Part shown: positions 1-61,166 of the stretch, piece by piece | Layout: the number at the start of each line of letters is the position of its first letter | How positions within the stretch are numbered: the stretch's first letter is position 1 | Origin: Chitinophaga oryzae | GTDB taxonomy: Bacteria > Bacteroidota > Bacteroidia > Chitinophagales > Chitinophagaceae | Assembly (NCBI RefSeq): GCF_012516375.2 | Contig: NZ_CP051204.2 | Span: forward strand, 3,472,001-3,536,000 | Length of the DNA stretch: 64,000 bases | Direction: 5' to 3' | Notes under the pieces: generated by a model | What the model was told of the DNA's origin: nothing | The model's database searches: none | Seen by the model: the letters and a program-made list of their open reading frames with translations, nothing else | Program-made: the position numbers and the translations under genes

Positions 1-3000
1 AAATCCGGTGGACCCCAAAAAAACAGCGCCATTGCCACGCTGATATTACTCAACAATATGACCGGGTTCGACCGGGATTTTACCGCACGCTATTTTAATC
101 CGCTTCAACAGCTAAGCAATCCCGCGCCCTACACCTACGCCCTGTGGTTCTTTGAGCCGGTACTGGGTAGCTATGGACTTAAAAAAGGCGTGCAACTGCA
201 GAACCTGGAAAAAGTGTTGTCGGATACTGTGAACTTTAACGGGTCCCTGAATGCCGCCGCCTCCTATTTTATGGGCATGCATCAACTGGTCAGCAAACGG
301 ATGGACCTCGCCCAGCCGCTCTTTAACCGTATCGGCGCATTAGAAAAATGGGCTTTTACCGGTCCCTTTGATAATCTCATGGGAAGCGGATTTGATAAGG
401 ACTTCGGGCCGGTACGCAAACCGGAGGGCGGCGCCTTTATCAGCAGCAATAATAACAGCCCGGTAAACTGGTTTGAGCCGCTGTATGCAACAGGGCAGGG
501 CTGGAGCTACGTAGGGGCCTATTTCCCGGTGAGCAACGCCGTTGGATATGCGCAGACTTTTGTAAACGCGCCTGCGGATATGGAGCCCCTGTTGTGCCTG
601 GGTGGCACAGGCGCCCTGAAAGTGTGGGTGAATGATAAACTGATGATCAGCCAGCCGGAAGAAAGAGTCACAGAGCTGGACTGGTGGAAAACCAGGGTGC
701 GCCTGAAAAAGGGCTTTAACAGGATACTGGTGCAGATCGGCTTCACAAAACAGAATATCCGGCCCAATTATATTGTACGGCTGACAGATAATGATTACAA
801 AGCGGTGAAAGGGATTGTTTGCCAGGCATCCCCGGCGCCTTATCAGCCGGATACGCAGAAAGATGAGCCGGTACTGGTCCCGCATTTTGCGGAAACCTAT
901 TTCAAAAAGCAACTGGCAGCACACCCGCAGGACCCTATTAACGCGGTGTTATTAAGCAGGGTTTATATCCGTAACCAGGAATGGGACAAAGCCAAAGCCG
1001 CACTGGCAAAATTTTACAAGACCTACCCCAAAAATGCTTTTATCACGAACTACTACTCGGACTGTATGTCAGGCAGTAACGACAGGACGGGCTATGCGGA
1101 AGCATTGGAATCCTTTAAAACACTGTTGCCGGATAATTACTGGACCCTTTATGCTAAAGTTGTCAAGCTGGAAGAGGAAAAGAGTTATGCGGAAGCCATG
1201 GAAGTACTGGACAAACTGGTCGGCATGCAGGGAGAGCAACGGGTCACAACCGTAAAGAAAATGCAGCTGTTAGCCGCGCAGGGGAAGATCGACAGCATGG
1301 TGCAGTTGCTGAAAAAAGCGTATGCTGCCTATCCTGAAGACGAGGAGCTGGTGCAGACAATGTACCAGTATGAAGCCAGCATGAACAACGATCCTGCTGC
1401 GGCACTCAAAGTGCTGGAAACGTATTGCAACCGGCAGTACGGCTATAGCACAGCATCATTCCTGGCCAGCGTATACCTTAACCAGGGAAAAACAGATGCA
1501 GCCGTCAACCAGATGAAACAACTGATTCAGGTGGCTCCTTATGAACTGGATGAATACAGCAAACTGATAAAATATTACTTTGCCAGCCAGCAATACGATT
1601 CTGCTATTCATTACCTCAACATACAACGGCAGATCAGTCCTTATTACCATCTGCCGCTGGGAGACCTGGGCCATTGTTATCTCCAGAAAAAAGAAACCGA
1701 TTCCGCTATCGCATATTTCAGGAAAGCGCTGGCTTTATATGCCGGAGGCTTCGACTACCGCGAACAACTGCGTATGCTGGAAAATAAGCCGCAGGTAGAC
1801 AAATATTTTCCTGCGCTGGATTATTACAAGGAGATAGAAAAGTATATACAGCAACCCCACGACTCCACCCATGCCTATGCTTACATTTTTGACGAGAAAA
1901 ATGTAATCGTATATCCGGAAGGAGCGGGGGAACAAACCTTTAACACTGCCGTTGTCGTTAATAACAAAAAGGGGATCGATCACTGGAAGGAGATTTCCAT
2001 ACCCTACAACAGTGTCTACCAGACCGTGTCTATAGTAAAAGCAGAAGTAATTAAACCGGGAGGCGCAAAGATTCCCGCTGAAACAGACGAGAATCAACTG
2101 GTATTCACCAAACTGAATGAAGGGGATGTGATCTACTACAGCTATAAGGTGAAAAGCACCGGAAGCGGCCGCCTTGGCCGTGAATACTGGGATAAATTCT
2201 ATTTCGCTGACTTCATGCCGGTCAATATCTCCAGTTATAATTTGCTGATAGCTGACACCATCCCCCTGAATTATGAATATGTGAATGGCGGTAATATCAA
2301 GCCAAAGATAACACAGCACGAAAAGTTTAAACTGTACAGCTGGAGGGAAGACAATATTCCGCCGGTACGGAATGAAAGTTATATGCCCAGCATCAATGAT
2401 GTGGGAAAGGTACTGCACCTTTCTACTGTCAAAAACTGGGATGTAATAGCGGAATGGTACAGTGATGTTACACGCGAACAATCGAAGGAAGATTTTGAGA
2501 TCAATGAAGCCTTCAGGGAATTGTTCCCGGCAGGAGTAAGCGGCCTGGACGATCTGGCCAAAGCCCGGAAAATTTATGAGTTCATAGAGAAAAATATTTC
2601 CTACAGCTCTGTTTCATTCCGGCAGGGCGCCTACGTCCCCCAAAAAGCAGGAAAAACCCTGTTAACGAAACTGGGAGACTGTAAGGATTTGTCGACACTC
2701 TTCCTTGCATTTGCCCGCAAAGCCGGCTTGCCGGCAAACCTGATCCTGGTGAGCACCAGGAGATACGGTCAGCGCAACATGCAGCTGCCATCGCTGGATT
2801 TTAACCACTGTATCATCAGCTTCAAAGCAAACAACAAAACATACTACCAGGAACTGACGGACAATACGCTTCCCTTTAATGCACTGCCTGGCAGGCTGGT
2901 AGGCGCACAGGTGCTCAACATCCCTTACGAATACAAGGCGGGAGAGAAAATCACCACCTTGCCGTTGGATAACTTCACCTCCAATATAATACGCCGCCGG

Positions 3001-3627
3001 ATGGACATTACGCTGGAAGACAATAGCCTCAGCGCTAAATCAAGCTGCGCGTATATCGGTGAAGTGGCTGCGGCCATGAGAAGTACCTATCAGCATGCCA
3101 CCAGCGAAGAGGCAAGGGACGCTATACAAAATAATGTCAGCAGCTCATTCAAAAAACAAGTAGTGCTGGACAGCCTGTCATTCAGAAATCTCGATAACCT
3201 GTCAGATACCGTTTGGCTGGATACCTATTTCACGGTAAAAGACGAAGTGATCAGCGTAGGAGACTTCAGCATGATCAAGCCTACTTTTATGGACGTAGTT
3301 GCCACCGCGAATATCTTTACGCCGCTGCCCAGACAACATCCGTTTGAATATGCCGACTATGAATCGATAGAAGATTATTATACCGACCTGGTGGTACATT
3401 TACCGGCAGGAAAGAAATTTGAACAGGTCCCCTCCGGCACCAGCCTGCGGCTAAATGACATGAATTACACACTGGACTTTAAAAAGACGGACGACAACAA
3501 CCTGATTATCAACAGACATTTTAAAACAAAAAGTAATACAACGATCGCCCCCGCCGCATTTAAGGAACTGGAAACATTTTTCAACGGCATTATCAAAGAG
3601 GAGCAGAAATACATCTCATTCAAATAA
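1..3627 (+). CDS. TPR / DUF3857 / transglutaminase-like protein (5' partial)
   Basis: The reading frame is open from the first base, so the gene starts before the window; the ATG at 58 is only the first internal Met. The visible part of about 1,200 residues has a central TPR-like region (roughly residues 290-580 counted from base 58). A DUF3857-like beta domain follows (about 600-800), then a transglutaminase-like core. The catalytic triad looks intact: Cys875 in GDCKDLS, His917 in FNHC and Asp935 in LTDN. Proteins of this architecture are common in Bacteroidota and are usually exported, but the substrate is unknown and cysteine-protease-like activity is possible. A strong hairpin terminator follows. 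The family call is confident; the role is not. Confidence 0.85.
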   Translation, partial: KSGGPQKNSAIATLILLNNMTGFDRDFTARYFNPLQQLSNPAPYTYALWFFEPVLGSYGLKKGVQLQNLEKVLSDTVNFNGSLNAAASYFMGMHQLVSKRMDLAQPLFNRIGALEKWAFTGPFDNLMGSGFDKDFGPVRKPEGGAFISSNNNSPVNWFEPLYATGQGWSYVGAYFPVSNAVGYAQTFVNAPADMEPLLCLGGTGALKVWVNDKLMISQPEERVTELDWWKTRVRLKKGFNRILVQIGFTKQNIRPNYIVRLTDNDYKAVKGIVCQASPAPYQPDTQKDEPVLVPHFAETYFKKQLAAHPQDPINAVLLSRVYIRNQEWDKAKAALAKFYKTYPKNAFITNYYSDCMSGSNDRTGYAEALESFKTLLPDNYWTLYAKVVKLEEEKSYAEAMEVLDKLVGMQGEQRVTTVKKMQLLAAQGKIDSMVQLLKKAYAAYPEDEELVQTMYQYEASMNNDPAAALKVLETYCNRQYGYSTASFLASVYLNQGKTDAAVNQMKQLIQVAPYELDEYSKLIKYYFASQQYDSAIHYLNIQRQISPYYHLPLGDLGHCYLQKKETDSAIAYFRKALALYAGGFDYREQLRMLENKPQVDKYFPALDYYKEIEKYIQQPHDSTHAYAYIFDEKNVIVYPEGAGEQTFNTAVVVNNKKGIDHWKEISIPYNSVYQTVSIVKAEVIKPGGAKIPAETDENQLVFTKLNEGDVIYYSYKVKSTGSGRLGREYWDKFYFADFMPVNISSYNLLIADTIPLNYEYVNGGNIKPKITQHEKFKLYSWREDNIPPVRNESYMPSINDVGKVLHLSTVKNWDVIAEWYSDVTREQSKEDFEINEAFRELFPAGVSGLDDLAKARKIYEFIEKNISYSSVSFRQGAYVPQKAGKTLLTKLGDCKDLSTLFLAFARKAGLPANLILVSTRRYGQRNMQLPSLDFNHCIISFKANNKTYYQELTDNTLPFNALPGRLVGAQVLNIPYEYKAGEKITTLPLDNFTSNIIRRRMDITLEDNSLSAKSSCAYIGEVAAAMRSTYQHATSEEARDAIQNNVSSSFKKQVVLDSLSFRNLDNLSDTVWLDTYFTVKDEVISVGDFSMIKPTFMDVVATANIFTPLPRQHPFEYADYESIEDYYTDLVVHLPAGKKFEQVPSGTSLRLNDMNYTLDFKKTDDNNLIINRHFKTKSNTTIAPAAFKELETFFNGIIKEEQKYISFK

Positions 3628-3699
3628 TTTATTGTTGTAAATTAGATTATTTAATATATTGATAATCACATATAATGTATCGGCTGGCGACAGCCGGCT

Positions 3700-3736
3700 A
3701 AAGCCTTGCAGGAGCTCCCTGCAAGGCTTTGTTTTT
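3700..3736 (+). terminator. Rho-independent terminator
   Basis: A perfect 13-bp stem (3700-3712 with 3718-3730) has a 5-nt loop and is followed by GTTTTT. It ends the transglutaminase gene. A smaller hairpin, CGGCT/AGCCG, lies just before it at 3681-3696. The rest of the 3628-3843 gap is AT-rich and shows no gene. Confidence 0.85.
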
Positions 3737-3843
3737 AATTGGCGGATTGGTTTGTAAATTATTGCCAATACTATCATGTTATTCTCTATTTTTATAGTTC
3801 CATTACGGAGGATGCGATTTTTAGAAACAAGTGAGTGACTATA

Positions 3844-4452
3844 ATGAATATGTCAGGTGAGCGGGATGAACAGGTACTGTTGGCTTCGGCGGCTACAGGA
3901 GACGAAACAGCTTTTGAAGCACTTTTCAGGAAGTACGGACGGAAGCTGTATAGTTTCATGCTGCCGCTGAACGGCGCCGCGGCTGCAGAAGACATCGTGC
4001 AGGAAGTGTTCTTCAAACTCTGGAAAGAACGTGATAAACTGGCGGCTATCACGCACTTCAACAGTTATCTTTTCCGCATGGCGCAAAACCAGGCCATCAA
4101 CGATTTCCGGAAAATGGCCAGGGCTACGCTCTTACCCATAGAAGAAGCCGGCCGGCAGGAAACAACACCGGCTACGGATTCCAACGAAGAAATAGAATTC
4201 AAGGCCCTGCGCGAACGGGTACACGAAATTATCGGCTCCCTGCCTCCGCAGCAACGCAAAGTATATCTCCTGAACAGGGAACAGGGCCTGAAACACAAAG
4301 AAATTGCCGAGCTGCTGAATATTTCCCCTTCCACCGTGAATAAACACCTGGTACAGGCGCTCCACGCATTGCGCACGGGTTTGGGCAATCATACCGACCT
4401 GCTGCCGGTATTCTTTCTGTTGCTCAGCTTTTCTGAAAAGTCCCCCTTCTGA
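3844..4452 (+). CDS. ECF-type RNA polymerase sigma-70 factor
   Basis: About 202 residues, the usual size of a Bacteroidota ECF sigma factor. Region 2 is visible as AAEDIVQEVFFKLW, followed by the -10 recognition stretch FNSYLFRMAQNQAINDFRK. Region 4 is a C-terminal helix-turn-helix with the motif LKHKEIAELLNISPSTVNKH. A GTG at 3835 would add three residues; ATG 3844 or 3850 is equally plausible and no Shine-Dalgarno site decides between them. The gene sits about 100 bp before a FecR gene and the SusC/SusD pair. By analogy with other sigma/FecR/SusC sets, it is inferred to switch on the downstream transporter when the ligand is sensed through the outer membrane. Confidence 0.93.
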   Translation: MNMSGERDEQVLLASAATGDETAFEALFRKYGRKLYSFMLPLNGAAAAEDIVQEVFFKLWKERDKLAAITHFNSYLFRMAQNQAINDFRKMARATLLPIEEAGRQETTPATDSNEEIEFKALRERVHEIIGSLPPQQRKVYLLNREQGLKHKEIAELLNISPSTVNKHLVQALHALRTGLGNHTDLLPVFFLLLSFSEKSPF

Positions 4453-4553
4453 AAAAATTTTTCCATTACACTAGACATATCCCGCTTTTTGATTGTCTTA
4501 CTGGTATCCAGGGACATTTTTAACACCTGGCATTACCTATTAAACCTGTTTCC

Positions 4554-5738
4554 ATGTCCGAAGGAAGAATAGATGACCTTGTGGCGAAATTTTTTCAGCA
4601 GACCTGTACGCCGGCTGAGAAAAGAGAACTGGCCGCCTGGATAGAACAGTCCGCCGACGATGCTGCGCTGCAGCGGGTGCTGGAGCGTGCATGGGCCCAT
4701 TACGAGCCTGTGGCGGACCTGACGCCCACGGCTTCTTCCCGGATACTGGACGATATCCTGGGCAGGCAGGAAGAGACAGGGCCGGTAACCGCCCGCATAC
4801 GCCCGATGCGCAGGACGTGGCGATATGTCGCCGCCGCCGTGACCATCGTGGCACTGGCAGGCGGGTATATCGTGTGGAAGTCACGCCCGCAGACACCTCC
4901 CGCACCGGCGGTGGCCCAGGCGGTGAAGAAGGACGTTGCGCCACCGGGTGGCAACAGGGCCACGCTGACTATGGCCGACGGATCGGTGATCCCGCTGGAC
5001 AGCACCATGAACAACACCGTCATAGCCGGGAGTAACGTGCGTATCGTTAAAACGGACAGCGGGCTGGTGACCTATCAGCAGCTGGCCGTACAGGGAGCCA
5101 AACCATCCTATAATACGCTGGCAGTCCCCGCAGGCGGGCAATTCAGGGTAATCCTGGCAGACGGCACCAAAGTATGGCTCAACGCGATGAGCAGCCTGCG
5201 TTATCCGGACATGTTCCCGGAAGGAACACGAAAAGTGGAACTCACCGGCGAAGCCTACTTCGAAGTATCGGCCAGCGCCGCCCAACCGTTCCTCGTAAAA
5301 GTAAACGACATGGAGCTGACCGTGCTGGGGACCAGCTTCAATGTGATGGCCTACCCCGACGAGGCATTTGTGAACACCACGCTGCTTAGCGGCAAAGTAG
5401 TGGTAAAACATCATAACGTCAGCCTGCCGCTGAAGCAGGGCTATCAGGCAGCCCTCAACAGGCGCACGGGGCAGGTGACCATTACACAGGCAGACACCAA
5501 TGAAGCGATAGCCTGGAAAAACGGCAGGTTCCTTTTTAACGGTACCCCGATAAAGGAGATCATGCTGCAATTAAGCCGATGGTATAATATAGAAGTAATA
5601 TATGCAGGAGAGGTGAATGAACAGTTTTATGCGGAGATACCTCGCTTTGCCAATGCGGCCGAAGCGTTAAGGATTCTGGAACTTACCGGAAAAGTACATT
5701 TCCGGCTGGAAGGACGGCGTGTAACCGTGTATCCCTGA
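4554..5738 (+). CDS. FecR-family anti-sigma factor
   Basis: 394 residues. A short cytoplasmic N-terminal part (about 1-85) should bind the sigma factor. One membrane helix follows near residues 87-105 (VAAAVTIVALAGGYIVW). The periplasmic FecR domain (about 190-290) carries the conserved stretches VPAGGQFRVILADGTKVWLN and LTGEAYFEV. A DUF4974-like C-terminal domain ends in LELTGKVHFRLEGRRVTVYP, which resembles an STN fold and is the expected contact for the STN domain of the downstream SusC. Together with the sigma factor at 3844 it forms a trans-envelope signalling unit. Length and order are standard for the family. Confidence 0.93.
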   Translation: MSEGRIDDLVAKFFQQTCTPAEKRELAAWIEQSADDAALQRVLERAWAHYEPVADLTPTASSRILDDILGRQEETGPVTARIRPMRRTWRYVAAAVTIVALAGGYIVWKSRPQTPPAPAVAQAVKKDVAPPGGNRATLTMADGSVIPLDSTMNNTVIAGSNVRIVKTDSGLVTYQQLAVQGAKPSYNTLAVPAGGQFRVILADGTKVWLNAMSSLRYPDMFPEGTRKVELTGEAYFEVSASAAQPFLVKVNDMELTVLGTSFNVMAYPDEAFVNTTLLSGKVVVKHHNVSLPLKQGYQAALNRRTGQVTITQADTNEAIAWKNGRFLFNGTPIKEIMLQLSRWYNIEVIYAGEVNEQFYAEIPRFANAAEALRILELTGKVHFRLEGRRVTVYP

Positions 5739-43000: not shown

Positions 43001-43027
43001 TATTGTCTAATTCTTTAATTGGAAATT

Positions 43028-44530
43028 ATGAAAGCAACAATAATAAAATACGGTTTGCTGGTACTGACAACAGGCTCCCTGTGGTTGACGGGTTGCCGGA
43101 AATTCCTCGATGAATCAGATCCCAGCAATTATACAGAAGAGAACTATTTTACCAAACCCGAACACGCGCGGAGCTCTGTGAATGCGATCTATGCCAGCCT
43201 GCGTGAACCTATGGGCGGGGACTTTGGCGGCGGGCCATGGACCATGACGGAGTTTGCCACCGGCCAGGCGGCCACCGACCTGGGCCAGGCGGTAGACGCT
43301 ATTTATATCAGGACACTGCGCAATACCGCCGACAACGCGTTCGGCGTCAGCTACTGGCGAAATTATTACAAGGGCATCACCAATGCCAACCTCTCCATCG
43401 CTAAAATTCCGAACATCAAAATGGATGCGACAGAACAGAAGAAGTTGCTGGGAGAAGCACACTTTATGCGCGCCTGGTACTATTTTACGCTGGTAAGGCT
43501 GTTTGGCAATATTCCTCTTGTAACAGAGCCCGTTGACCTGAAGTCAGAGCAGATAAGGCCCAAACAGGCGAACCCGGAAGACGTGTACAAACTGATAGTG
43601 GATGATCTTAAAACTGCGGAGAATGCAGGCCTTCCGTGGGTAGATGCCGGCGGCAGGGCATCTCTCGGCGCTGTGAAGTCACTGCTGGCGAAAGTATATC
43701 TCACCATGGCCGGATACCCTTTGCAGAAAGGCGCTCCGTATTATGACCTGGCGGCAAAGAAAGCGGAAGAGGTAGTGGATTCAAAACAATATAAATTGTT
43801 TGAATCTTATTACGACCTGCACAACCCGGCAAAGAAAAATGTGGAAGAGAACATCTTCATGATCCAGTATAAAACGCAGGTCATCCCCGGAAACTGGCAA
43901 TCGCTGATCATTCCTTACAACAAAAATATCTCTGCTTATTCTTCGGAAACCGGCGGTATTTACGCGGAAGAGAGTTTTGTGAAGTCCTATGACCCCGCGG
44001 ATTACAGGGCCAAAGAAGGACAGTTCTTTTTTACGGAGTTCACCCACCAGGATGACAGAAGCAAAAAAGTAGCGCTGGGCGCGTATTTTATCTATAAACT
44101 GTTTGACGTGGCGGCACAGACGTCTACGGCCAACAGTGATCTGAACTGGTCACTGATCCGTTACGCCGATATATTGCTGGTATATGCTGAAGCTTCCAAC
44201 GAAGTGAGCGGACCGGGCGCTAAAGCCTATGAGGCAGTGAATGCCATCCGGACAAGGGCAAAACTGCCGGCACTGTCGGGGCTCACCAAAGAACAGTTCA
44301 GAGAAGCGGTATGGCGTGAGCGCTGGTACGAGTTGTGTTTCGAAAACGTAACCTGGTTTGACATGGTGCGCCTCCGCAAAGCGTTTAACGTGACCACGAA
44401 GACTTTTGAGAACTATGTAGGGCATAAGTTCCCCGTTGGCCGTGCGTTAACGGAACGGGAACTGTTGTTCCCCATCCCCAGCGTGGAGCTGAGAAACAAT
44501 CCCAACCTGGTACCAACGAAAGGGTACTAA
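43028..44530 (+). CDS. SusD/RagB-family nutrient-binding lipoprotein
   Basis: 500 residues from ATG 43028 (a TTG at 43019 would add three). The lipobox is LTGC (about Cys20). Family marks are LLGEAHFMRAWYYFTLVRLF, the helical repeats, and the C-terminal AVWRERWYELCFENVTWFDM with the final LIPxxE-like segment LLFPIPSVELRNNPNL. It follows the second susC by 27 bp and forms the surface lid of that transporter. A bidirectional hairpin follows. Confidence 0.94.
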   Translation: MKATIIKYGLLVLTTGSLWLTGCRKFLDESDPSNYTEENYFTKPEHARSSVNAIYASLREPMGGDFGGGPWTMTEFATGQAATDLGQAVDAIYIRTLRNTADNAFGVSYWRNYYKGITNANLSIAKIPNIKMDATEQKKLLGEAHFMRAWYYFTLVRLFGNIPLVTEPVDLKSEQIRPKQANPEDVYKLIVDDLKTAENAGLPWVDAGGRASLGAVKSLLAKVYLTMAGYPLQKGAPYYDLAAKKAEEVVDSKQYKLFESYYDLHNPAKKNVEENIFMIQYKTQVIPGNWQSLIIPYNKNISAYSSETGGIYAEESFVKSYDPADYRAKEGQFFFTEFTHQDDRSKKVALGAYFIYKLFDVAAQTSTANSDLNWSLIRYADILLVYAEASNEVSGPGAKAYEAVNAIRTRAKLPALSGLTKEQFREAVWRERWYELCFENVTWFDMVRLRKAFNVTTKTFENYVGHKFPVGRALTERELLFPIPSVELRNNPNLVPTKGY

Positions 44531-44587: not shown

Positions 44588-44622
44588 AACAGGCTTATAA
44601 GTCACGTGCTTATAAGCCTGTT
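44588..44622. terminator. Bidirectional terminator between susD and the pqs-like operon
   Basis: Arm 44588-44601 (AACAGGCTTATAAG) pairs with 44609-44622 around a 7-nt loop, followed by TTGTTTTTG on the plus strand. It lies between the convergent ends of the susD gene and the PqsE-like gene (stop at 44638). Confidence 0.8.
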
Positions 44623-44637
44623 TGTTTTTGTATCGTA

Positions 44638-45525
44638 TCATACGGGTCTGATATACCCTGTTTCCTGCAAAATGGTGATAACGTTCCGGACGCTGGCCTG
44701 GTGCATCCTTACGGAGAAAAAGGTGCTGCTGTTGTAACTGTATTTCTCCGTGACAAGCCGCGATGCTTCTTCCAGCCCGTGTTGATGCAACATTGTTTCG
44801 AAGTAGCGAATGTAGCGCTGGTGGGTAAGCAGGCTATGGCCGGCCAGCTGTTGTGCATGTTCATCTGTCAGCAGGCCATGATGTCCTGCGGTTACCAGGG
44901 AAACAGGCAGTTGTCCCAGTCGTTCGATGCTTTGCAGGTATTGGGGCGGACTCTGAAAAGGCAGCGGGAACCAGTCGTCCGGCCGCAGCATTTCCCCGAA
45001 AGCGTCCGCCGCAAATAAATACTGATGGTCGCTGTAGAGGGAGAGCGAACACTCACTGTGGCCGGGAGTGGCCATCACCGTGAAGGTATGGTCTCCGATG
45101 GTCAGCTGGTCTCCTTCACCTACAGCGAGGAAGTCCCCGGAGGCTAAAGCATCATAGGGGTTGTCTGCCTGTTCCGACGGTGGTCCGGGAAGGAAACTGC
45201 GCTGGAGCCTGTAGAGGGAGGTCCTGTATTTTGGGGTCATGAAATTCCGGATGGCTGTTTCCGCAGCGTATATCCGGGCTTCCGGCAGCAATGTGGCCAG
45301 CAGTCCGCAGTGATCAAAATGAGAATGGGTAATAAACCAATGCCTGATATCGGAAAGATCAGGAACGATGGCTTTGAGCTGGGAGAGGACGAGCTCCTGC
45401 TCGCGCAACATGCCGCCATCCACCAGCAGCCATTCCGGCCCGCATTTCAACAGGTACAGCGGGACTTCTTTTCTGCCCAGCAGATAGAGGTCGCTGGTTA
45501 CTTTACCGGGTTCGTATATCCACAT
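44638..45525 (-). CDS. pqsE: PqsE-like metallo-beta-lactamase-fold hydrolase
   Basis: 295 residues, close to Pseudomonas PqsE (301). The di-metal site is complete: His67, His69, Asp71, His72 (THSHFDHCGLL), His156 (TPGHS), Asp174 (ADAFGE) and a His pair at 215-216 (GHHGLL). Glu178, equivalent to the PqsE active-site Glu next to the bridging Asp, is also present. Conserved surroundings compared with PqsE from memory include DLYLLGRKEVPLYLL, RHWFITHSHFDHCGLL and YLQSIERLGQLP. PqsE hydrolyses 2-aminobenzoylacetyl-CoA. This is the last gene of the minus-strand operon, 20 bp after the PqsD-like gene. No LuxR partner (as RhlR for PqsE) is nearby. Confidence 0.85.
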   Translation of the reverse strand: MWIYEPGKVTSDLYLLGRKEVPLYLLKCGPEWLLVDGGMLREQELVLSQLKAIVPDLSDIRHWFITHSHFDHCGLLATLLPEARIYAAETAIRNFMTPKYRTSLYRLQRSFLPGPPSEQADNPYDALASGDFLAVGEGDQLTIGDHTFTVMATPGHSECSLSLYSDHQYLFAADAFGEMLRPDDWFPLPFQSPPQYLQSIERLGQLPVSLVTAGHHGLLTDEHAQQLAGHSLLTHQRYIRYFETMLHQHGLEEASRLVTEKYSYNSSTFFSVRMHQASVRNVITILQETGYIRPV

Positions 45526-45545
45526 AATTACCGGGTTTTAGAGGT

Positions 45546-46526
45546 TCAGAATCGATATAACATAGCTCCCCAGGTGGCGCCGGAGCCGTAAGTCAGTACC
45601 AGCGCGAGGGCGCCGGGGCAGGGATGGTTTTCCCGGACATATTCGCTCATGGTGACAGCGAGGGAGGCTGAAGCCATATTGCCATAGCGTTCTACGTTTG
45701 TAACAAACTTCTGTGGAGGAACGGACAGCTTTTCCCTTACTGCTTCGAGTATGCGCAGGTTGGGCTGGTGCGGTAACACAATATCGATATCATCGATTTT
45801 AAGCCCGTTGCGTTCCAGTATTTCCTGTGCTATTTCACACAAACGCTGCGTAGCGTTTTCAAACATGGGCTTGCCGTTCATCCTGAAGTGAGGTATGGCG
45901 GTACTGTCGGTATAGCTGGATTGTGCAGTGCCTGGCGCAGCGGTCCATAACAGTTCGAAGCAGCTGCCATCTGCTTTGATCATCAGGTCGATGATACCAC
46001 TTGTCTGAGCGGGACTGTTACTGAGTACGACTGCGCCGGCACCGTCGCCCAGCAGGATTGAGAGGTTTCTGCCGTCATCGGAAGTGTCCATCCTTTTGGA
46101 AAGTACTTCTCCGCAGGCTACCAGGATGTGCTTGTAAACACCGGAAGTAAGCAGGTTGCGCGCCAGTTCCATTCCGTAAAGCAATCCGGAACACTGCGCC
46201 CGTATGTCAAAGACGGGAACATGCCGCAGTCCCAGCATAGGCTGTATAAAGCAGGCTTCCGACGGATCGTGATGATCGGGGCTGAGCGTATTCACGATCA
46301 GCATATCAATATCCGTTGCCTGTAGTCCCGCGTGTTCTATGGCCCGCAGACAGGCGGGTACAAGCAGGGAGCTAAGCCCTTTTTCGCGGGCAAGATGTCT
46401 TCGTGTAACCACTCCCGTGCGGGAGAGAATAAAATCTTCAGTGGTGTTGATACGGCTGACGATCATTTTATTATCAATTACCGGCTCGGGCAGGAAATGT
46501 CCGGCCCCGGTGATGGTGATGGCCAT
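45546..46526 (-). CDS. pqsD: PqsD-like FabH-family condensing enzyme
   Basis: 326 residues with the KAS III triad Cys112 (RAQCSGLLYG), His253 (LPHQPNLRIL) and Asn283 (YGNMASAS). The similarity to Pseudomonas PqsD, recalled from memory, is far above generic FabH: INTTEDFILSRTGVVTRRH, LIVNTLSPDHHDPSEACFIQ, GEVLSKRMDTSDDGRNLSI and TYGSGATWGAMLYR all match closely, and the Cys has the same residue number. PqsD condenses anthraniloyl-CoA with malonyl-CoA or malonyl-ACP to 2-aminobenzoylacetyl thioester. The gene begins 1 bp after the PqsA-like gene. A generic database name would be ketoacyl-ACP synthase III. Confidence 0.9.
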   Translation of the reverse strand: MAITITGAGHFLPEPVIDNKMIVSRINTTEDFILSRTGVVTRRHLAREKGLSSLLVPACLRAIEHAGLQATDIDMLIVNTLSPDHHDPSEACFIQPMLGLRHVPVFDIRAQCSGLLYGMELARNLLTSGVYKHILVACGEVLSKRMDTSDDGRNLSILLGDGAGAVVLSNSPAQTSGIIDLMIKADGSCFELLWTAAPGTAQSSYTDSTAIPHFRMNGKPMFENATQRLCEIAQEILERNGLKIDDIDIVLPHQPNLRILEAVREKLSVPPQKFVTNVERYGNMASASLAVTMSEYVRENHPCPGALALVLTYGSGATWGAMLYRF

Positions 46527-46527
46527 G

Positions 46528-48054
46528 TTAGTTTTTTTTCGGTTGAAAGTGTAGTTGATAGTGTGTTCTTAATTCGGTGCGGGACAATTTTCCATTGGCG
46601 TTGCGCGGCAGTTCCGGCAGGTAAAGCATTTCTCTGGGCCGGTAATGGCTTTCGGTGCATTCGTTGATAAATTGTGTGACGGTGTCCCGGGTATCTGCTT
46701 TTCCAACGAGCAACAGCAACGTGCAGGTGAGGTTTTCATCGTCGGGAAGGTCTAGCAGTACACATTCCTCCACATCGCTGACGGCATTCAGAAGGGCTGA
46801 TTCAAACGCCAGTGGATTTACCCACCTGCCGTTGGATTTGAACAGCTCGTCTTTGCGGCCGAAGTAGGTGTAGGTACCATTTGTTTCCATACTAAAAAGA
46901 TCGCCGGTATAATACCATCCGTCGCGGAACTTCTGGTTGGTCCGCACCGGATCTTCCCAGTAACCTGCCAGCGCGTAAGGAGAGCGTACGCATAGCTCGC
47001 CTACCTGTAACCTGTCGCTCAGCGGTTCTCCTGCGTATTCCAACCGTAGCTGATAGCCGGATACCGGTTTGCCGGTGCTGCCTGCGGTATGGCTTGCCGG
47101 TGAATTACTCAGGAATACATGTCCTGTTTCCGTGCTGCCGATGCCGTCTAATATGGGTTTTCCGGTAAAGGCTTTCCATTCTTCGTACAGGCTTGCGGGT
47201 AAGGTTGATCCGGCAGAAAAAAAGATCCTGACATGCTGCAATGCTTCCACCAAGCCAGCCGGACGTTGTTTTAGCAGCATGGCATATACTTTAGGCACGC
47301 CGAAAAATACGGTAGGGCGGTAGTGGTGTATATTCGCTGCGATGTTGTCTATCGTGGGCCAGGCATCGTCCAGTAACACGCCGGCTCCCGTCAGTAGCGG
47401 AAAGAAAAAGCTGTTGCCCAGGCCATACCCGAAAAACATCTTCGGAACGGAATAGATCCTGTCCTGCGGGCCAATACCAAGCGTCTCTACAGCGAAATGC
47501 CTGGTGGCGGCCAGCATGGCTTCCTGGCTGTGTTGCACTGCTTTGGGTTTTCCGGTGGTGCCCGAAGTATATTGCCAGAAAGCAATGCTGTTCGGTTTGC
47601 GGTAATAGTAGGCAGGTGCGGTTGCTGCCGGTAAGGAAAAAACGGAATGCTGCGCTGCAGGGTCGTCGGTGAAAATCAGGTCGGGCGACAGGAAAGGAGA
47701 GACCGCCAGTGCCGGTTTTACCCGTTCCAGTTCGTCCGGGTCGACGATGATCATCACTGCACGGCTGTCAAGCAGGATATGCTCCAGCGTTGGCAGATCT
47801 ACCCTGGGGTTAACGGGTACCGGTACAATACCGACAGTCGCTAATGCGAGAAAAATGTAATGAAAGGCAGGTTTGTCTTTTAATAATAACAGCGCCCTTT
47901 GTTCCGGCGCTATGCCGCTGAATGCGCCTGCCAGTTCCTGAACTTGCCGGGTCAGCCGGTGAGCGCTGACGGATTCACCTTTGCAGACAATCTGGGCGGG
48001 ATGGGCATGCCGGTGCAGGGCAGAAAGCATGGTTTCCGCAAGACTATAAAACAT
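46528..48054 (-). CDS. pqsA: PqsA-like aryl-CoA ligase (AMP-forming)
   Basis: 508 residues of the benzoate-CoA ligase group. The P-loop-like motif is WQYTSGTTGKPKAV, the adenylate motif DGIGSTETGHVFL, then GWYYTGDLF and the catalytic Lys489 in RNANGKLSR. The acid-binding region YSVPKMFFGYGLGNSFFFP followed by LLDDAWP matches Pseudomonas PqsA more closely than ordinary benzoate ligases, from memory. The expected substrate is an aromatic acid, with anthranilate the leading candidate; benzoate or hydroxybenzoates cannot be excluded. It lies 39 bp after the lipocalin-like gene and 1 bp before the PqsD-like gene. No anthranilate-synthase genes are in the window. Confidence 0.87.
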   Translation of the reverse strand: MFYSLAETMLSALHRHAHPAQIVCKGESVSAHRLTRQVQELAGAFSGIAPEQRALLLLKDKPAFHYIFLALATVGIVPVPVNPRVDLPTLEHILLDSRAVMIIVDPDELERVKPALAVSPFLSPDLIFTDDPAAQHSVFSLPAATAPAYYYRKPNSIAFWQYTSGTTGKPKAVQHSQEAMLAATRHFAVETLGIGPQDRIYSVPKMFFGYGLGNSFFFPLLTGAGVLLDDAWPTIDNIAANIHHYRPTVFFGVPKVYAMLLKQRPAGLVEALQHVRIFFSAGSTLPASLYEEWKAFTGKPILDGIGSTETGHVFLSNSPASHTAGSTGKPVSGYQLRLEYAGEPLSDRLQVGELCVRSPYALAGYWEDPVRTNQKFRDGWYYTGDLFSMETNGTYTYFGRKDELFKSNGRWVNPLAFESALLNAVSDVEECVLLDLPDDENLTCTLLLLVGKADTRDTVTQFINECTESHYRPREMLYLPELPRNANGKLSRTELRTHYQLHFQPKKN

Positions 48055-48093
48055 GACAAAATGGTTATTTTGAGAGAAGAGATATTTTCATTG

Positions 48094-48531
48094 TCAGATC
48101 CGCTTCCAGACAAGCCGGAACACCAGCTGCCGGTCTTTGACGGGCATTGGCGGCGTCACCAGTATCAGTTCATCGCCGCGTAGTTCTGCATACCTGACAA
48201 ACCGGATACCGATATAGTTGGGAAAAAGGCTTCCTTCGACCTCATGCAGGATTTCGCCGGGAGTTTCTTCGGCATAACGGCCATAATAGGCATTGTAGCC
48301 ATGGAACGCCTCGTAGGTTTCTTCGGGCGTGCCTGTGCCTGCTGCGACGGAAGCAAATAAATTTCTCTCCGGCTTCATCATCTGAACGCTCATGTTACCC
48401 TTATCATCATAGATAAGCATGCCGGTAGGGGAGTCGCCGAAAAATTGAAGAGTGTTGCCCTGCTGGTCTTCGTCTGTGCAGCTGATCAGGCGCCATGCAC
48501 CAATAAGGTGTTTGCCAATGAAGGTTTTCAT
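48094..48531 (-). CDS. Lipocalin-like protein (PF13924 type), first gene of the pqs-like operon
   Basis: 145 residues without signal peptide, so cytosolic. The lipocalin-like fold shows LIGAWRLISCTDEDQQGN at the start, GMLIYDDKGNMSVQMMKPER near 40-56, and a late ELRGDELILVTPP strand pair, typical of the lipocalin-like PF13924 family that often accompanies polyketide-type pathways. No counterpart exists in the Pseudomonas pqs operon. Because it opens the operon, it may bind or help cyclise the beta-keto aryl product; this is inference. Its upstream 151-bp gap should contain the operon promoter, but no exact TAnnTTTG was found. Confidence 0.82.
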   Translation of the reverse strand: MKTFIGKHLIGAWRLISCTDEDQQGNTLQFFGDSPTGMLIYDDKGNMSVQMMKPERNLFASVAAGTGTPEETYEAFHGYNAYYGRYAEETPGEILHEVEGSLFPNYIGIRFVRYAELRGDELILVTPPMPVKDRQLVFRLVWKRI

Positions 48532-48682
48532 ATGGTTATGTTTGAGGGTGTAAATATGTGGTAACGCAAAAGGTTTTCTATAGGATTCAGTTGTGCACTA
48601 CCGTTGTTATTTTTACTAAAGTAAGATTACTGATTTGAATTTACAAGTGGCGTAATAAAAATTTATTTTGTATTTGCCGGCG

Positions 48683-49420
48683 TTATTTTGCGCCATCCAG
48701 CTGTCGCAGCATATCAGTAGTAAAACCGTAATGTTCTTCCACCGGTACTTTGGCCCTGTGGACGCTGTTGATGTCTTTGCCCTCTTTTGTCCAGAGCATA
48801 GGATAGAAACTAAAAACTTCGTTACCATCCAGCATGCTTACTTCCTGTTCCCAGTTGCTCCAGCGAAGGTCACGATAAAAATCCCCGAGGTCGCCCTCAA
48901 AACAAAACAGCAGGAACTCCGAATAGGAGATGTCCAGCGCTTCCCATGCCATGGCTGCCGGATCGAAGTAGTATACTTTGCCCATGTCTTCGCCGAGCCC
49001 TCCGCTGTTGATGGCAAAGAACCCGCCGGCTGCGTCGTCCGCCACCAGCAGGAATCCTGCGTTGCCTTCGTCGAAGATTGTTTTGTTGATATTCCAGGAA
49101 TGCAATGTTCTGTTGAATGTGTTATGCCCGGACCCTAAGATCCTTATCCAGCCATGATCTACCAATATGCCGCCACTGTTGAATATAATAGCGCCCATGG
49201 GCGAACGCGTGGTGACCTGTGTGGCATACAGCGTTTCTTTCGCTTTACTTTCGGTAGCGGGTAAGACCGTTACTTTATGGGTGGCGTCGCCGATCCAGGA
49301 GGTGACCAGCTCCCAGCCGGGTTCCTGTGTGTTGATTAAATCTCCGAGGGATTTCTTAGGCGTCTGAACAACGGTCAACAAACGATTGACGCCGAGCAGT
49401 TGTAAATGATGGTCGTGCAT
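48683..49420 (-). CDS. DUF2625-family protein
   Basis: 245 residues, no signal peptide. Typical family stretches are WELVTSWIGDATHKVTVLP, VTTRSPMGAIIFNSGGILVD and HGWIRILGSG. DUF2625 proteins have no known function and look like SUKH/Smi1-type globular proteins. It lies 29 bp downstream of the MFS transporter and 151 bp upstream of the lipocalin-like gene on the same strand, so it may be part of a longer transcript reaching the pqs-like genes. Confidence 0.82.
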   Translation of the reverse strand: MHDHHLQLLGVNRLLTVVQTPKKSLGDLINTQEPGWELVTSWIGDATHKVTVLPATESKAKETLYATQVTTRSPMGAIIFNSGGILVDHGWIRILGSGHNTFNRTLHSWNINKTIFDEGNAGFLLVADDAAGGFFAINSGGLGEDMGKVYYFDPAAMAWEALDISYSEFLLFCFEGDLGDFYRDLRWSNWEQEVSMLDGNEVFSFYPMLWTKEGKDINSVHRAKVPVEEHYGFTTDMLRQLDGAK

Positions 49421-57563: not shown

Positions 57564-57601
57564 AGGGTAAGTTGCAGGCCGCAAGGCTTACAACTTACCC
57601 T
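57564..57601. terminator. Hairpin between convergent genes
   Basis: AGGGTAAGTTG (57564-57574) pairs with CAACTTACCCT (57591-57601) over a 16-nt loop. The stop codon of the minus-strand permease gene lies inside the loop (57588-57590). It is likely to act as a two-way terminator, though the T-run is weak. Confidence 0.55.
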
Positions 57602-58763
57602 CTTTGGCTGTCCTGAACAGGTACCACAGTTTTATCTTCAGCGCCAGCCAACCCAGGAAGGCATACACCAGCAATAAAATACCCAGGTGCCGGATATAAG
57701 GGAAAGTCAGTTCCACCGATCCTTTCTGGATCAACAGTATTTTGAAGGCCTGCAGGAAAGGCGTCAGCGGGATGATATTGGCCATCAACTGCACGAACGC
57801 CGGCATGGCGCTGAGCGGCCAGGTAAAACCGCTGATGATGAACGCGGGAGAGGCAATCACCATCAGTACCTGCGTGGCTTTTAAAGCGTCCGGGATGAGA
57901 ATGCTGACAAACACGCCCATAAACGATGCAGACCCCACAAAGAAGGCTGTCAGCCATATAAAGCTGAGAATGCCCTCCGGCATCGGCACATTGAAGAACA
58001 TGTGCATGAAGTAATAAATAGCAACAATCAGAATGGAAAAGGTCCAGATAGGGACCACCTTGATCAGCATGATCGGGAACGCCCGGCGGCGCATGCCGGC
58101 ATATTCCGTTACAAAAGACCCGCGCTGAAACTCCGCAGCAAAGCTGATGGCCATCGCCAGTAATATCACCTGTTGCAATACCACCGCCAGCATCGCCGGC
58201 CACATAAATATGAGGTAGTTGCTGGTAGTGTTGAACAGCGTGATGTAGTTCGTTTTAAACGGTTCGTACTGCGTGGCGGCCCTTACGGCGGGCATTCCCA
58301 TTTTCTGCAGCCCTTTGATGGACACGCCGGCGGAAAACGTTCCGATGGTAAGCTGCAGCGCTTTGGAAGCGAAGTTGGCCGTCAGTACATTGCTGGTGTT
58401 CACATACACATTCACTTCCGGGTATTTTTTCTGCAGGATGCCGGCCTCGAAGCGGGCGGGTATCATCACCACGGCAGCAGCTTCTTTTCTGATCACTTCA
58501 TCGTTTACACTGGAAGGCTCCTGCAGGTACTTCAGCGTTTTAATGCTCTTGTTATCGCCCAGCATCTCCACCAGCTGCGCAGATAAGGGGGTATTGTCTT
58601 TGTCTATAACGATCACGGGTATATTTTCCACCTTTCCGGCTTTATATACGAAGCCGATCAGGGTGGCATACAACACCGGCGCCAGGAAAAATACGGAGCG
58701 CAGGGTGGAATTGCCGAGGAACAGCTTAAACTCCCGTTTCAACAATCGGAAAAATTCTTTCAT
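57588..58763 (-). CDS. ABC-2 type export permease
   Basis: 391 residues with six membrane helices: one near 25-42, a large periplasmic domain 45-175, then five helices between 180 and 380 including IFMWPAMLAVVLQQVILLAM. The layout matches the YhbR/YhhJ-like ABC-2 permeases of HlyD-linked exporters. It starts 6 bp after the HlyD-like gene. No ATP-binding protein is encoded in or beside the operon. Confidence 0.9.
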   Translation of the reverse strand: MKEFFRLLKREFKLFLGNSTLRSVFFLAPVLYATLIGFVYKAGKVENIPVIVIDKDNTPLSAQLVEMLGDNKSIKTLKYLQEPSSVNDEVIRKEAAAVVMIPARFEAGILQKKYPEVNVYVNTSNVLTANFASKALQLTIGTFSAGVSIKGLQKMGMPAVRAATQYEPFKTNYITLFNTTSNYLIFMWPAMLAVVLQQVILLAMAISFAAEFQRGSFVTEYAGMRRRAFPIMLIKVVPIWTFSILIVAIYYFMHMFFNVPMPEGILSFIWLTAFFVGSASFMGVFVSILIPDALKATQVLMVIASPAFIISGFTWPLSAMPAFVQLMANIIPLTPFLQAFKILLIQKGSVELTFPYIRHLGILLLVYAFLGWLALKIKLWYLFRTAKEGKL

Positions 58764-58769
58764 GCCTGA

Positions 58770-59726
58770 TTATTTCAGTATAACACTTGCGTTTACCAGT
58801 ATGTCTTTCGTCTTGCCCGGATCTTTGGGCTGCACCTTGATCTCATAAATCGCGTCCTGCGGCTGATAGTCGGGGAAAGCGGTAGTGATGTCCGCATAAC
58901 GGGTCAACTGTTTGATGTAAGCGATGGTGCCTTCCATTTCTTCGTTGTTGTACAGCACCTGCATTTTGACGTCCTGTCCTTTTTTATACCCGGCGATCTT
59001 GCTTTCCGGAATGGTGAAGCGGAACCAGGTGCTGCCGGGGATGTAGCCGTTGAACAGCGCAAAGCCGGCGGTGGCCAGCTCTCCGGGGTTCAGGCTGATG
59101 GTTTCTATGTCCATATCATTGGTGGCGATCACATAACGTTCGGAGTAGGCCACATTGGCTTCCTGTAATGCGCCTTTGGCCTGCGAAGCCTGACCGGCGG
59201 CCATGTTCACTTTTTCCACGCGGGTGCCTCTCCTTACGTCGTCCAGTTCGGCGATCACCGCATCGTACTGGGCTTTGGCGCCCTGGTATTTGGCATATAC
59301 TTCGTCATAAGCCTGCGGCGACATGAGGCTGTCGTTGAACATATTGGTGGCCCTTTCATACGATTTGCGGGCGAATTCATACTGCTCTTTCAGTCCTTTG
59401 TATTTGGCCTGTAACTGTTTCAGCTGATCGGCGGTGGCGCCGTTGCGCGCCATCTGCTCCTGCGCGGTGGCAGCGTTGACGGCTCCCTGCGCCTGCGCTA
59501 TTTTAGCGGAAACTTCCGGCACGTCCAGCAGGGCAAGGGTATCTCCCTTTTTCACGGTCTGTCCTTCCTTAACGTAAATATTTAGGATCCTGCCGGTAAC
59601 CTTCGGCGCAAAAGACACCACATCTTTTTTGGCTTTGCCCTCGAAACGGTCGGCGTTGGACTTTTTGGAAGAACAGCCTGCGAATGTCAGTGAACAGATC
59701 AATAATATGGGTGTAGTTATTTTCAT
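58770..59726 (-). CDS. HlyD-family periplasmic adaptor lipoprotein
   Basis: 318 residues with lipobox FAGC (about Cys18). A split biotinyl-lipoyl domain is seen in GRILNIYVKEGQTVKKGDTL and a coiled-coil hairpin spans about 75-185. A beta-barrel domain follows. It should link the inner-membrane permease to the TolC protein. It lies 33 bp after the TolC gene and 6 bp before the permease. Confidence 0.92.
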   Translation of the reverse strand: MKITTPILLICSLTFAGCSSKKSNADRFEGKAKKDVVSFAPKVTGRILNIYVKEGQTVKKGDTLALLDVPEVSAKIAQAQGAVNAATAQEQMARNGATADQLKQLQAKYKGLKEQYEFARKSYERATNMFNDSLMSPQAYDEVYAKYQGAKAQYDAVIAELDDVRRGTRVEKVNMAAGQASQAKGALQEANVAYSERYVIATNDMDIETISLNPGELATAGFALFNGYIPGSTWFRFTIPESKIAGYKKGQDVKMQVLYNNEEMEGTIAYIKQLTRYADITTAFPDYQPQDAIYEIKVQPKDPGKTKDILVNASVILK

Positions 59727-59759
59727 CTTACTGTAATTAGTTTGAGTAATGGTGTAGGC

Positions 59760-61166
59760 TTAATACAATTTGGTGATGTCCAGCTCCTGGGTAGACCGCA
59801 TCAGTTCCACGGCGGCCCTGCGCTGGTTGAAGATAGCATTCTGATAATCCAGTTCCGCTGCTTCGAGGTCGTTTTCCGCTTCTATCAGCTGGGTGGATTT
59901 GGACATCCCGTACCTGAATTCTTTTTCTGCCTGTACCAAAGCATTGTTCGCCATTTCTTTTTCTTTTTTCTTCAGGGCTATCTGCGAATTGGCGATGTTA
60001 TAATTGGACTGATTGTTGGCCTGGTTTAACGTGAGCTTGCGCATGGCATCGTATTTCTGGTTTTGCAGCAGTTCCCGGTCGATGCGCGCCGTTTCGATAG
60101 CATGTTTTCCCTCCCTGCCGTCGAAGATCTCCCATTTAAAACCGATGCCGGCGTTCAGCATCGGGAAGATATTGAGGTTGGTGGGCCGCCAGTCCAGTTT
60201 CCGGCCGGGATAGCCGATCGCCGGAATAGGAGGGATGATATTGTCGGACGATTTGATCCTGGTGCCATACAGTCCGATGTAGTAGGCGGAGGCCTTCAGC
60301 TGTACTTTGGGTATCCACCAGGTTTGTTCCGCTTTTATTTTATAGCCGGAAGCGTTGATACCATGGTCCAGCGCGCGTATTTCCGCCCGTTGTTCAACGG
60401 ACTTCTGTGGCGCGGGCAGCGCTACAGGTACCAATACGGGTTCAATCAGCCGGAGCCGCTCCTTGCCGATGCCTGTCAGCACCTCGAGTTGGGTCAGCAG
60501 CAGTTCTTTTTTCCCCTCGTATTCGGCCATTTTGGAATCGAGGGTAGCCTGTGCCAGCTCTATCTTCTTATGGTCATAAGGGGTGATCAGCCCGTAGCCC
60601 AGCGCTTTGTCGGCCGTTTTGCGGTTGGCGTCCAGCCTTCGTTTGGCCTCGTCCAGTACTTTTTTGGACTGATGTACCAGCGCCAGCTGATCGTAGGCCC
60701 GGGAGATGGTGGCCGCCACCTCGTCGGATGTTTTCTCCAACAGCACGTTTTCAGATTGCCGCTTTTCTTCGAGGGCTTTGTTGAGCTGCTTCACCTTGCC
60801 GCCTGCATACAGCAGCATTTTGGCATCCGCTTTGGCCAGCCCGGAGAAACCGGATACATTGATGTTATTATTGTACTTGCCTTCGGGGATGGTGAGAAAC
60901 GGTTGCAGGTTGAGCTCCGGGGAAATAACATGTGCGGTGGCATTCAGGTAACCGGCCATTCCGCTGACTTCCAGGGTGGGGAGGTAAACATCCTTCAGCT
61001 TGTGCTGGTCCAGTACCGTCAGTTTGTTTTTGGTAAGCTGGGCGCTGAGGTCTGCATCCCGAATCATGGCGCTGTCCAGAAGCTCTTTGAAGCCGGGTGC
61101 CGTTTGTGCTTTGGCGTAGTGGTAAAACAGAAGTGACAGCAGTAGGAACGACAGCTTACTTTTCAT
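59760..61166 (-). CDS. TolC-family outer membrane efflux protein
   Basis: 468 residues with signal peptide ending near YAKAQ. Two long coiled-coil repeat blocks are seen: KADAKMLLYAGGKVKQLNKA to about 230 and NQKYDAMRKLTLNQANNQSN to the end, with the second-half mark YGMSKSTQLIEAENDLEAAE. It is the first gene of a three-gene export operon. The sequence upstream to 61377 is the divergent promoter region shared with the NmrA-like gene. Confidence 0.92.
   Translation of the reverse strand: MKSKLSFLLLSLLFYHYAKAQTAPGFKELLDSAMIRDADLSAQLTKNKLTVLDQHKLKDVYLPTLEVSGMAGYLNATAHVISPELNLQPFLTIPEGKYNNNINVSGFSGLAKADAKMLLYAGGKVKQLNKALEEKRQSENVLLEKTSDEVAATISRAYDQLALVHQSKKVLDEAKRRLDANRKTADKALGYGLITPYDHKKIELAQATLDSKMAEYEGKKELLLTQLEVLTGIGKERLRLIEPVLVPVALPAPQKSVEQRAEIRALDHGINASGYKIKAEQTWWIPKVQLKASAYYIGLYGTRIKSSDNIIPPIPAIGYPGRKLDWRPTNLNIFPMLNAGIGFKWEIFDGREGKHAIETARIDRELLQNQKYDAMRKLTLNQANNQSNYNIANSQIALKKKEKEMANNALVQAEKEFRYGMSKSTQLIEAENDLEAAELDYQNAIFNQRRAAVELMRSTQELDITKLY

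Follow-up and report, generated by a model that had tools for sequence, protein, structure and literature searches.

In Pseudomonas aeruginosa, PqsA produces anthraniloyl-coenzyme A (CoA) and PqsD condenses it with malonyl-CoA to give 2-aminobenzoylacetyl-CoA, which either cyclises to 2,4-dihydroxyquinoline (DHQ) or, on hydrolysis by PqsE, yields 2-aminobenzoylacetate, to which PqsBC then adds an acyl chain (excerpts of PMC7731028, PMC6204780 and PMC12012761). When PqsBC is blocked in this organism, DHQ and 2-aminoacetophenone rise (excerpt of PMC6204780). A 2025 survey, in its excerpted part, names four proteobacterial genera as alkylquinolone producers and distinguishes four cluster architectures, A to D (PMC12012761). 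Here we describe a four-gene unit from Chitinophaga oryzae that, judged by sequence comparison, contains a true pqsA-pqsD-pqsE set in a Bacteroidota genome, accompanied by a lipocalin gene. It lies in a window of 64,000 nucleotides (the whole stretch analysed), which covers positions 3472001-3536000 of a single-contig genome of 8.36 Mb (G000). As a preliminary description of the locus had supposed, no published report of pqs genes in Bacteroidota was found among the listed papers and excerpts of the open-licence PubMed Central (PMC) literature, which is not proof of absence.

The unit and its genes are the following.

44629..48697, no strand assigned: gain/loss unit of 4069 bp (blastn of occupied versus empty site, the ends being those of the blastn pieces; gene order).
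48094..48531, minus strand: Lipocalin_5 protein of 145 amino acids, first gene of the unit (Pfam PF13924, 97.5 bits; AlphaFold2; synteny).
46528..48054, minus strand: PqsA-type aryl-CoA ligase of 508 amino acids, probably acting on anthranilate (best PDB match 5oe3, PqsA; motifs; tree; approximately unbiased (AU) test).
45546..46526, minus strand: PqsD-type beta-ketoacyl-acyl carrier protein synthase III (KAS III) of 326 amino acids (best PDB match 3h76, PqsD; alignment; tree).
44638..45525, minus strand: PqsE-type metallo-beta-lactamase-fold thioesterase of 295 amino acids (best PDB match PqsE; metal-ligand columns; tree).

A single base pair (46527) separates the ligase gene from that of the condensing enzyme, 20 bp (45526-45545) separate the latter from the hydrolase gene, and upstream of the ligase gene, after a further 39 bp, comes the lipocalin gene, likewise on the minus strand. 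The preliminary description had the coordinates, minus strand, order and gaps of the three enzyme genes right, and the peptide stretches it quoted are present in the translations of the open reading frames (ORFs); its A, D and E assignments were correct, but it had overlooked the lipocalin gene.

As in P. aeruginosa pqsABCDE, the A-, D- and E-type enzymes are encoded in the same relative order, on one strand and with tight spacing, and their catalytic residues are conserved. The window differs from that cluster (type A in the excerpted survey, PMC12012761) in having no pqsC, in starting with the lipocalin gene and in lacking the A-B-C-D-E order. Identity to the PA7 proteins is 39% for the ligase, 56% for the condensing enzyme and 33% for the hydrolase, and there is no PhnAB match at the Chitinophaga varians locus that is described below. 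Among the type C and D clusters of the same excerpt, Burkholderia hmqABCDEFG and Chitinivorax ABCDELFG, D is homologous to that of the window, as is E in Burkholderia, but Burkholderia HmqA belongs to another ligase branch and the window is without C. The anthranilate-CoA ligase of the aurachin starter pathway (AuaEII, 4wv3) is of the same superfamily as that of the window, with a separate branch and separate motifs.

Against the PDB, the condensing enzyme scores 394 bits with PqsD (3h76) and 208 bits with the best FabH. In a tree of 49 rows (8 of 57 having been dropped beforehand), it falls in a PqsD clade of 36 rows with a Shimodaira-Hasegawa-like approximate likelihood ratio test (SH-aLRT) support of 100, outside which lie two FabH-type proteins of its own genome and 11 intermediate KAS III rows. 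Its fork with Chryseobacterium and Flavobacterium has a support of 90, and the next fork outward (91), which holds Bacteroidota rows, also includes Pseudoalteromonas. Cys112, His253 and Asn283 (window numbering), which we take to be the catalytic residues and which had been described as intact, are invariant in an alignment of 15 rows.

The hydrolase matches PqsE at 125 bits and the next metallo-beta-lactamase at 43 bits. In a PqsE tree of 27 rows (7 of 34 were dropped as near-duplicates), which has one Verrucomicrobiia relative and no generic metallo-beta-lactamase outgroup, the Chitinophaga rows form a group with those of Arcicella, Flavobacterium and Chryseobacterium (86), and Hymenobacter and Bizionia have no settled place. 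Positions 69, 71, 73, 74, 159 and 178, presumably the metal ligands, are conserved in 27 of 27 rows, position 221 in all 26 rows that cover it and Glu182 in 25 of 27; both the metal site and the Glu of the DAFGE stretch are intact in the window, as previously claimed. At positions 243, 246 and 247, which we assume to form the arginine triad contacting RhlR, the window has Arg, Arg and Tyr, and all three Arg are found only in three Pseudomonas rows of the 27. In another Chitinophaga genome (G735), PqsE (L089:8080-8961) carries His at Glu182 and Ala at Ser285 (Ser in 22 of 26 rows) and keeps the metal ligands.

For the ligase the PDB margin is narrow (PqsA 266 bits, benzoate-CoA ligase 246 bits) and is settled by the tree, since grouping with benzoate-CoA ligases is rejected. 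Among 52 rows (18 of 70 were dropped beforehand, nine as distant acyl-CoA ligases and nine as near-duplicates, one duplicate locus having been excluded earlier), the window ligase lies with P. aeruginosa PqsA in a clade of 36 rows (SH-aLRT 100) and, within it, in a subclade of 16 rows (98) whose members of known organism are all Bacteroidota. Outside the clade are seven outgroup rows of benzoate-CoA ligase type, AuaEII and Burkholderia HmqA. If five Chitinophaga-type ligases (from four loci, plus one unnamed protein) are forced to group with the seven outgroup rows, the log-likelihood drops by 242 units (AU p = 4e-10; the AU tests were devised after the first tree had been seen, and all trees are quick searches with SH-aLRT support only).

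With A and D in Pqs clades and E nearest to PqsE by a wide margin, the three genes are, at the level of sequence, a real pqsA-pqsD-pqsE set. The likeness beyond family background that the preliminary description had asserted is borne out by the PDB margins for D and E and by the tree and AU test for A. The grouping with the Pqs branch that it had named as support was found for A and D, which stand apart from benzoate-CoA ligases and FabH; E is found among PqsE, but in a tree that has no generic outgroup.

A PqsC profile built from ten clusters was run over whole genomes. It gave 556 bits in Arcicella and 525 bits in PA7, the positive controls, and 397 bits in a Polyangiaceae genome. In the four Chitinophaga genomes that carry PqsD, the best scores were 132 (the genome of the window, G000), 125 (G735), 134 (G745) and 134 bits (G746), with no PqsC-level match; PqsB was not searched genome-wide. 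The other genomes gave 110 (Microbulbifer halophilus), 157 (Parabeggiatoa) and 128 bits (a Mycobacteriaceae genome). Since the profile cross-matches other KAS III proteins of the Arcicella control at up to 158 bits and its PqsD at 122 bits, the Chitinophaga scores of 125-134 bits and those of the last three genomes are at the level of cross-hits. Given this lack of a PqsC-level match in the four genomes, alkylquinolones are not expected. The preliminary description had suggested a quinolone or aryl-polyketide signal or toxin, and a role as signal or toxin found no support.

Searches with PqsD retrieved, at E 1e-90, one of 294 genomes of the family and, at E 1e-80, one of 395 of the phylum, in both cases the genome of the window, and, at E 1e-70, four of 79 genomes of the genus (G000, G745, G746 and G735). 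Bacteroidota carriers that were seen in the contig scan described below were missed in the phylum sample, so that these tallies understate the spread. The order lipocalin-A-D-E is found in all four genus genomes with PqsD, with the lipocalin upstream of pqsA in each.

We consider it reasonably probable, from sequence, that this is a true pqsA-D-E set working without PqsC, joined with the lipocalin in a four-gene unit and yielding a small anthranilate-derived product, where we infer the substrate, the product, the role of the lipocalin and the biological use. PqsA would activate anthranilate, supplied by tryptophan synthesis or by kynureninase, to anthraniloyl-CoA; a kynureninase (454 bits) in the same genome is one possible source. 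PqsD would condense anthraniloyl-CoA with malonyl-CoA to 2-aminobenzoylacetyl-CoA, whose thioester PqsE would cleave. The lipocalin would bind the unstable beta-keto intermediate and steer its fate, most likely towards ring closure, and the product released would be 2-aminobenzoylacetate, 2-aminoacetophenone or DHQ. This Chitinophaga, a distant relation of Pseudomonas, carries three enzymes that begin the Pseudomonas quinolone route and, in place of the finishing enzyme, a lipocalin-fold protein. Lacking a PqsC that could attach a fatty acyl chain, it would probably use them for a small anthranilate-derived compound rather than for the Pseudomonas signal.

The lipocalin matches Lipocalin_5 (PF13924) at 97.5 bits against a curated cut-off of 25, and no signal peptide was seen in it by eye. 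Its AlphaFold2 model (mean predicted local distance difference test score of 93.8) is a beta-barrel with nine strands of at least three residues, whose structural neighbours are generic lipocalin-like proteins. Homologues at E 1e-10 occur in 28 of the 79 genus genomes. Beyond the four pqs-linked copies, the nearest two (48-49% identity) accompany a type I polyketide synthase instead of PqsA and PqsD: in G747 (L092:5891-10294), Lipocalin_5 is the gene directly after a ketosynthase-acyltransferase-acyl carrier protein-thioesterase synthase, and in G710 (L093:5953-10191) it is fused to the C-terminus of a synthase with this domain order. Within 1.5 kb of the next lipocalin (36%, G702) are fragments that resemble a synthase and a thioesterase. 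In a lipocalin tree of 43 rows, where few branches are supported (8 of 40 starred), the four pqs-linked copies cluster with three proteins of unknown context (98), within a clade of 19 rows (99) to which the G747/G710 pair also belongs. These links with synthases suggest that the lipocalin handles beta-keto products. A more specific proposal, which we regard as somewhat unlikely, is that it is a cyclase that closes the quinolone ring on the PqsD product (or fixes another fate) in the terminal place of PqsBC, and that it joined PqsA-PqsD at least twice, in Chitinophaga and in M. halophilus, after or instead of PqsBC.

Several points weigh against the pathway proposed above. None of the 14 lipocalins of the phylum sample other than that of the window, and none of the five examined among 21 further genus genomes, has a synthase within 1.5 kb, and the G702 lipocalin falls outside the clade of 19 rows. 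The lipocalin may act in binding, transport or protection and not as a catalyst. Further, the His at Glu182 of PqsE in G735 may indicate that the thioesterase is relaxing in that genome, and anthranilate as the substrate has its sole basis in the motifs and clade of the ligase. It is a distinct possibility, which we would place below even chances, that the lipocalin is merely a carrier or self-protection protein and that the final product forms spontaneously. Most lipocalin folds are ligand binders, as this explanation would have it; however, the lipocalin accompanies A-D-E in four of four genomes, a second lipocalin-A-D arrangement exists in M. halophilus and the lipocalin is fused to a synthase in a relative, which together suggest a step in synthesis.

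The motifs of the ligase agree with its tree. The window has FFGYG, SAGS, TETGHVF and GDLF, and two solved benzoate-CoA ligases have FFAYG, SAGE, TEMLHIF and GDKY; the fourth letter of the SAGS motif (S, A or T) is Glu in none of the 36 rows of the PqsA clade and in all seven outgroup rows (the two solved enzymes and five database proteins). Against the benzoate-CoA ligase family TIGR02262 the window ligase scores 319.8 bits, below the curated cut-off of 375, and P. aeruginosa PqsA itself scores 309. From motifs and clade, the substrate is probably anthranilate. We find it unlikely that the ligase takes another aromatic acid (benzoate, hydroxybenzoate or 3-hydroxyanthranilate from the kynurenine route) and leads to another aroylacetyl product: benzoate-CoA ligase is close behind PqsA in the PDB and the kynureninase present can also feed 3-hydroxyanthranilate, but the ligase has motifs of the PqsA type and falls in one clade with enzymes whose clusters also encode PqsC, D and E.

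A full alkylquinolone pathway, with another KAS III or a polyketide synthase in the place of PqsBC, seems quite improbable to us. In Bacteroidota, relatives of A, D and E do sit in clusters with C, and with B in seven of nine by BLAST, and the genome of the window holds five other KAS III-like matches, but these are at most about 25% identical to PqsC and the profile reaches 132 bits there versus 525-556 in the controls. Finally, the idea that an ordinary FabH, a benzoate-CoA ligase and an unrelated hydrolase stand side by side by chance, which the preliminary description had named as its refutation and which the top NCBIfam names might suggest (benzoate-CoA ligase family, below cut-off; beta-ketoacyl-ACP synthase 3, a broad subfamily whose cut-off is passed; B3 beta-lactamase, far below cut-off), is already contradicted by the trees and AU test, the PDB margins for D and E and the conservation of the set in four genomes, and we give it practically no credence.

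The contig scan used a PqsD alignment, required exact peptide patterns and yielded 62 loci, 35 of which have a PqsD at least 46% identical to that of the window. PqsC is found in the fetched stretch of 29 of the 35 and, in a thirtieth (L030, Polyangiaceae), just outside it on the same contig (397 bits). The five loci without PqsC are those of C. varians (L011), M. halophilus (L037), Parabeggiatoa (L058) and two short metagenome contigs (L028 and L042); a lipocalin related to that of the window (BLAST E 1e-8) is present in two of these five (C. varians and M. halophilus); the remaining 30 gave no such match. Bacteroidota account for ten of the 35: C. varians and nine loci with A, C, D and E (L012-L019 and L022), from five Chryseobacterium, Flavobacterium hercynium, Arcicella aurantiaca, Hymenobacter rubripertinctus and an uncultured Bizionia. 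PqsB is detected at E 1e-8 in seven of the nine (50-105 bits); in the other two, L012 and L013, an unassigned ORF separates A from C. All nine carry extra genes between C and D. Domain searches of L012 and L014 (Arcicella and one Chryseobacterium) revealed in both an amine-oxidase-like flavoprotein, an AurF-type N-oxygenase and a flavin adenine dinucleotide (FAD) monooxygenase, and in the Arcicella locus also an SCP2 protein and FabA-type and ketosynthase-type proteins. The AurF-type enzyme, which in both loci is one of the extra genes between C and D, could serve N-oxidation, the job of PqsL in Pseudomonas. This architecture is not among the four in the excerpted part of PMC12012761. These clusters are the closest named branch for the window's A (12-row fork, 99) and are near its D and E; they have C in nine of nine and B in seven of nine, whereas the window has A, D, E and the lipocalin only.

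In M. halophilus, the order lipocalin-PqsA-PqsD (L037, 7671-10981) is found with PhnA- and PhnB-like genes nearby (2331-5292); the genome has no PqsC-level match and the 21-kb locus no PqsE. A single clade of M. halophilus and Chitinophaga PqsA is rejected (AU p 3e-13), and the lipocalin, 31% identical to that of the window, is on a long branch whose place in the tree is unsure. As the two PqsA are far apart, the lipocalin-A-D arrangement probably arose twice.

The Pqs enzymes of Bacteroidota, in fuller clusters and in the PqsC-free lipocalin unit, would extend quinolone-type chemistry across a phylum boundary. A natural pathway of A, D and E only would let the fate of 2-aminobenzoylacetate be studied without PqsBC, and the lipocalin is a candidate new ring-closing protein; were it a cyclase, bacteria would have one more type of anthranilate-malonyl pathway, and Bacteroidota a quinolone chemistry of their own. 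Since Burkholderia alkylquinolones inhibit many Bacteroidota isolates (excerpt of PMC11513363), the making of such compounds within the phylum would raise the question of self-resistance.

The site of the unit is bordered by three further features.

43019..44530, plus strand: flanking RagB/SusD-type gene, outside the unit (adjoins DUF2625 in L138 and L140, both without the unit); the label is a putative one, given from the sequence.
44588..44622, no strand assigned: inverted repeat between the SusD-type gene and pqsE, possible terminator (also at the empty site).
48683..49420, minus strand: flanking DUF2625 gene, outside the unit (Pfam; synteny).

The same SusD-type gene lies before the unit, and DUF2625 after it, in the window, G745 and G746; G745 and G746 have an extra gene of 467-468 codons beside the lipocalin, and G746 also two small ORFs. 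G735 has other flanks, but at a distance of about 3 kb there are genes like those at window 57588-61166, which makes a rearrangement possible. In the close relative G686 (L138), whose local proteins are 89-98% identical to those of the window, the SusD-type gene adjoins DUF2625, and blastn finds 33 bp where the window has 44629-48697. The unit is also missing at that site in G712, and G692 holds one other gene there. The last 15 bp of the DUF2625 gene fall within the insert as delimited by blastn, and the inverted repeat, being present at the empty site too, belongs to the flank and not to the unit. No regulator gene was found in the unit or immediately beside it; no genome-wide search for a PqsR-type receptor was made. 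The ratio of nonsynonymous to synonymous substitution rates (Nei-Gojobori) lies at 0.08-0.16 for each of the four genes when compared with the nearer orthologues in G745 and G746; in the comparison with G735, three of the four have saturated synonymous sites. The four-gene unit is under purifying selection and is a discrete unit carried by few Chitinophaga and missing from most; together with the site comparison, this indicates a gained or lost block that is old rather than fresh and has been kept functional.

Some further observations were made. In the Polyangiaceae metagenome genome of L030, the ligase groups with aurachin AuaEII (SH-aLRT 99), D and E are of Pqs type, with PqsC on the same contig, and a flavin reductase gene comes next after the ligase. 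In Candidatus Parabeggiatoa (L058, 5703-8890), a protein of 157 residues without Pfam match, which by eye we take to be hotdog-fold thioesterase-like and perhaps a replacement for PqsE, is encoded directly upstream of pqsA-pqsD. Elsewhere in the genome of the window, at about 4.43-4.81, 5.04-5.08, 5.53-5.59 and 6.31-6.37 Mb, there are many adenylation-domain-like matches in open frames of up to 8706 amino acids, and these stretches are probably several large nonribosomal peptide synthetase loci.

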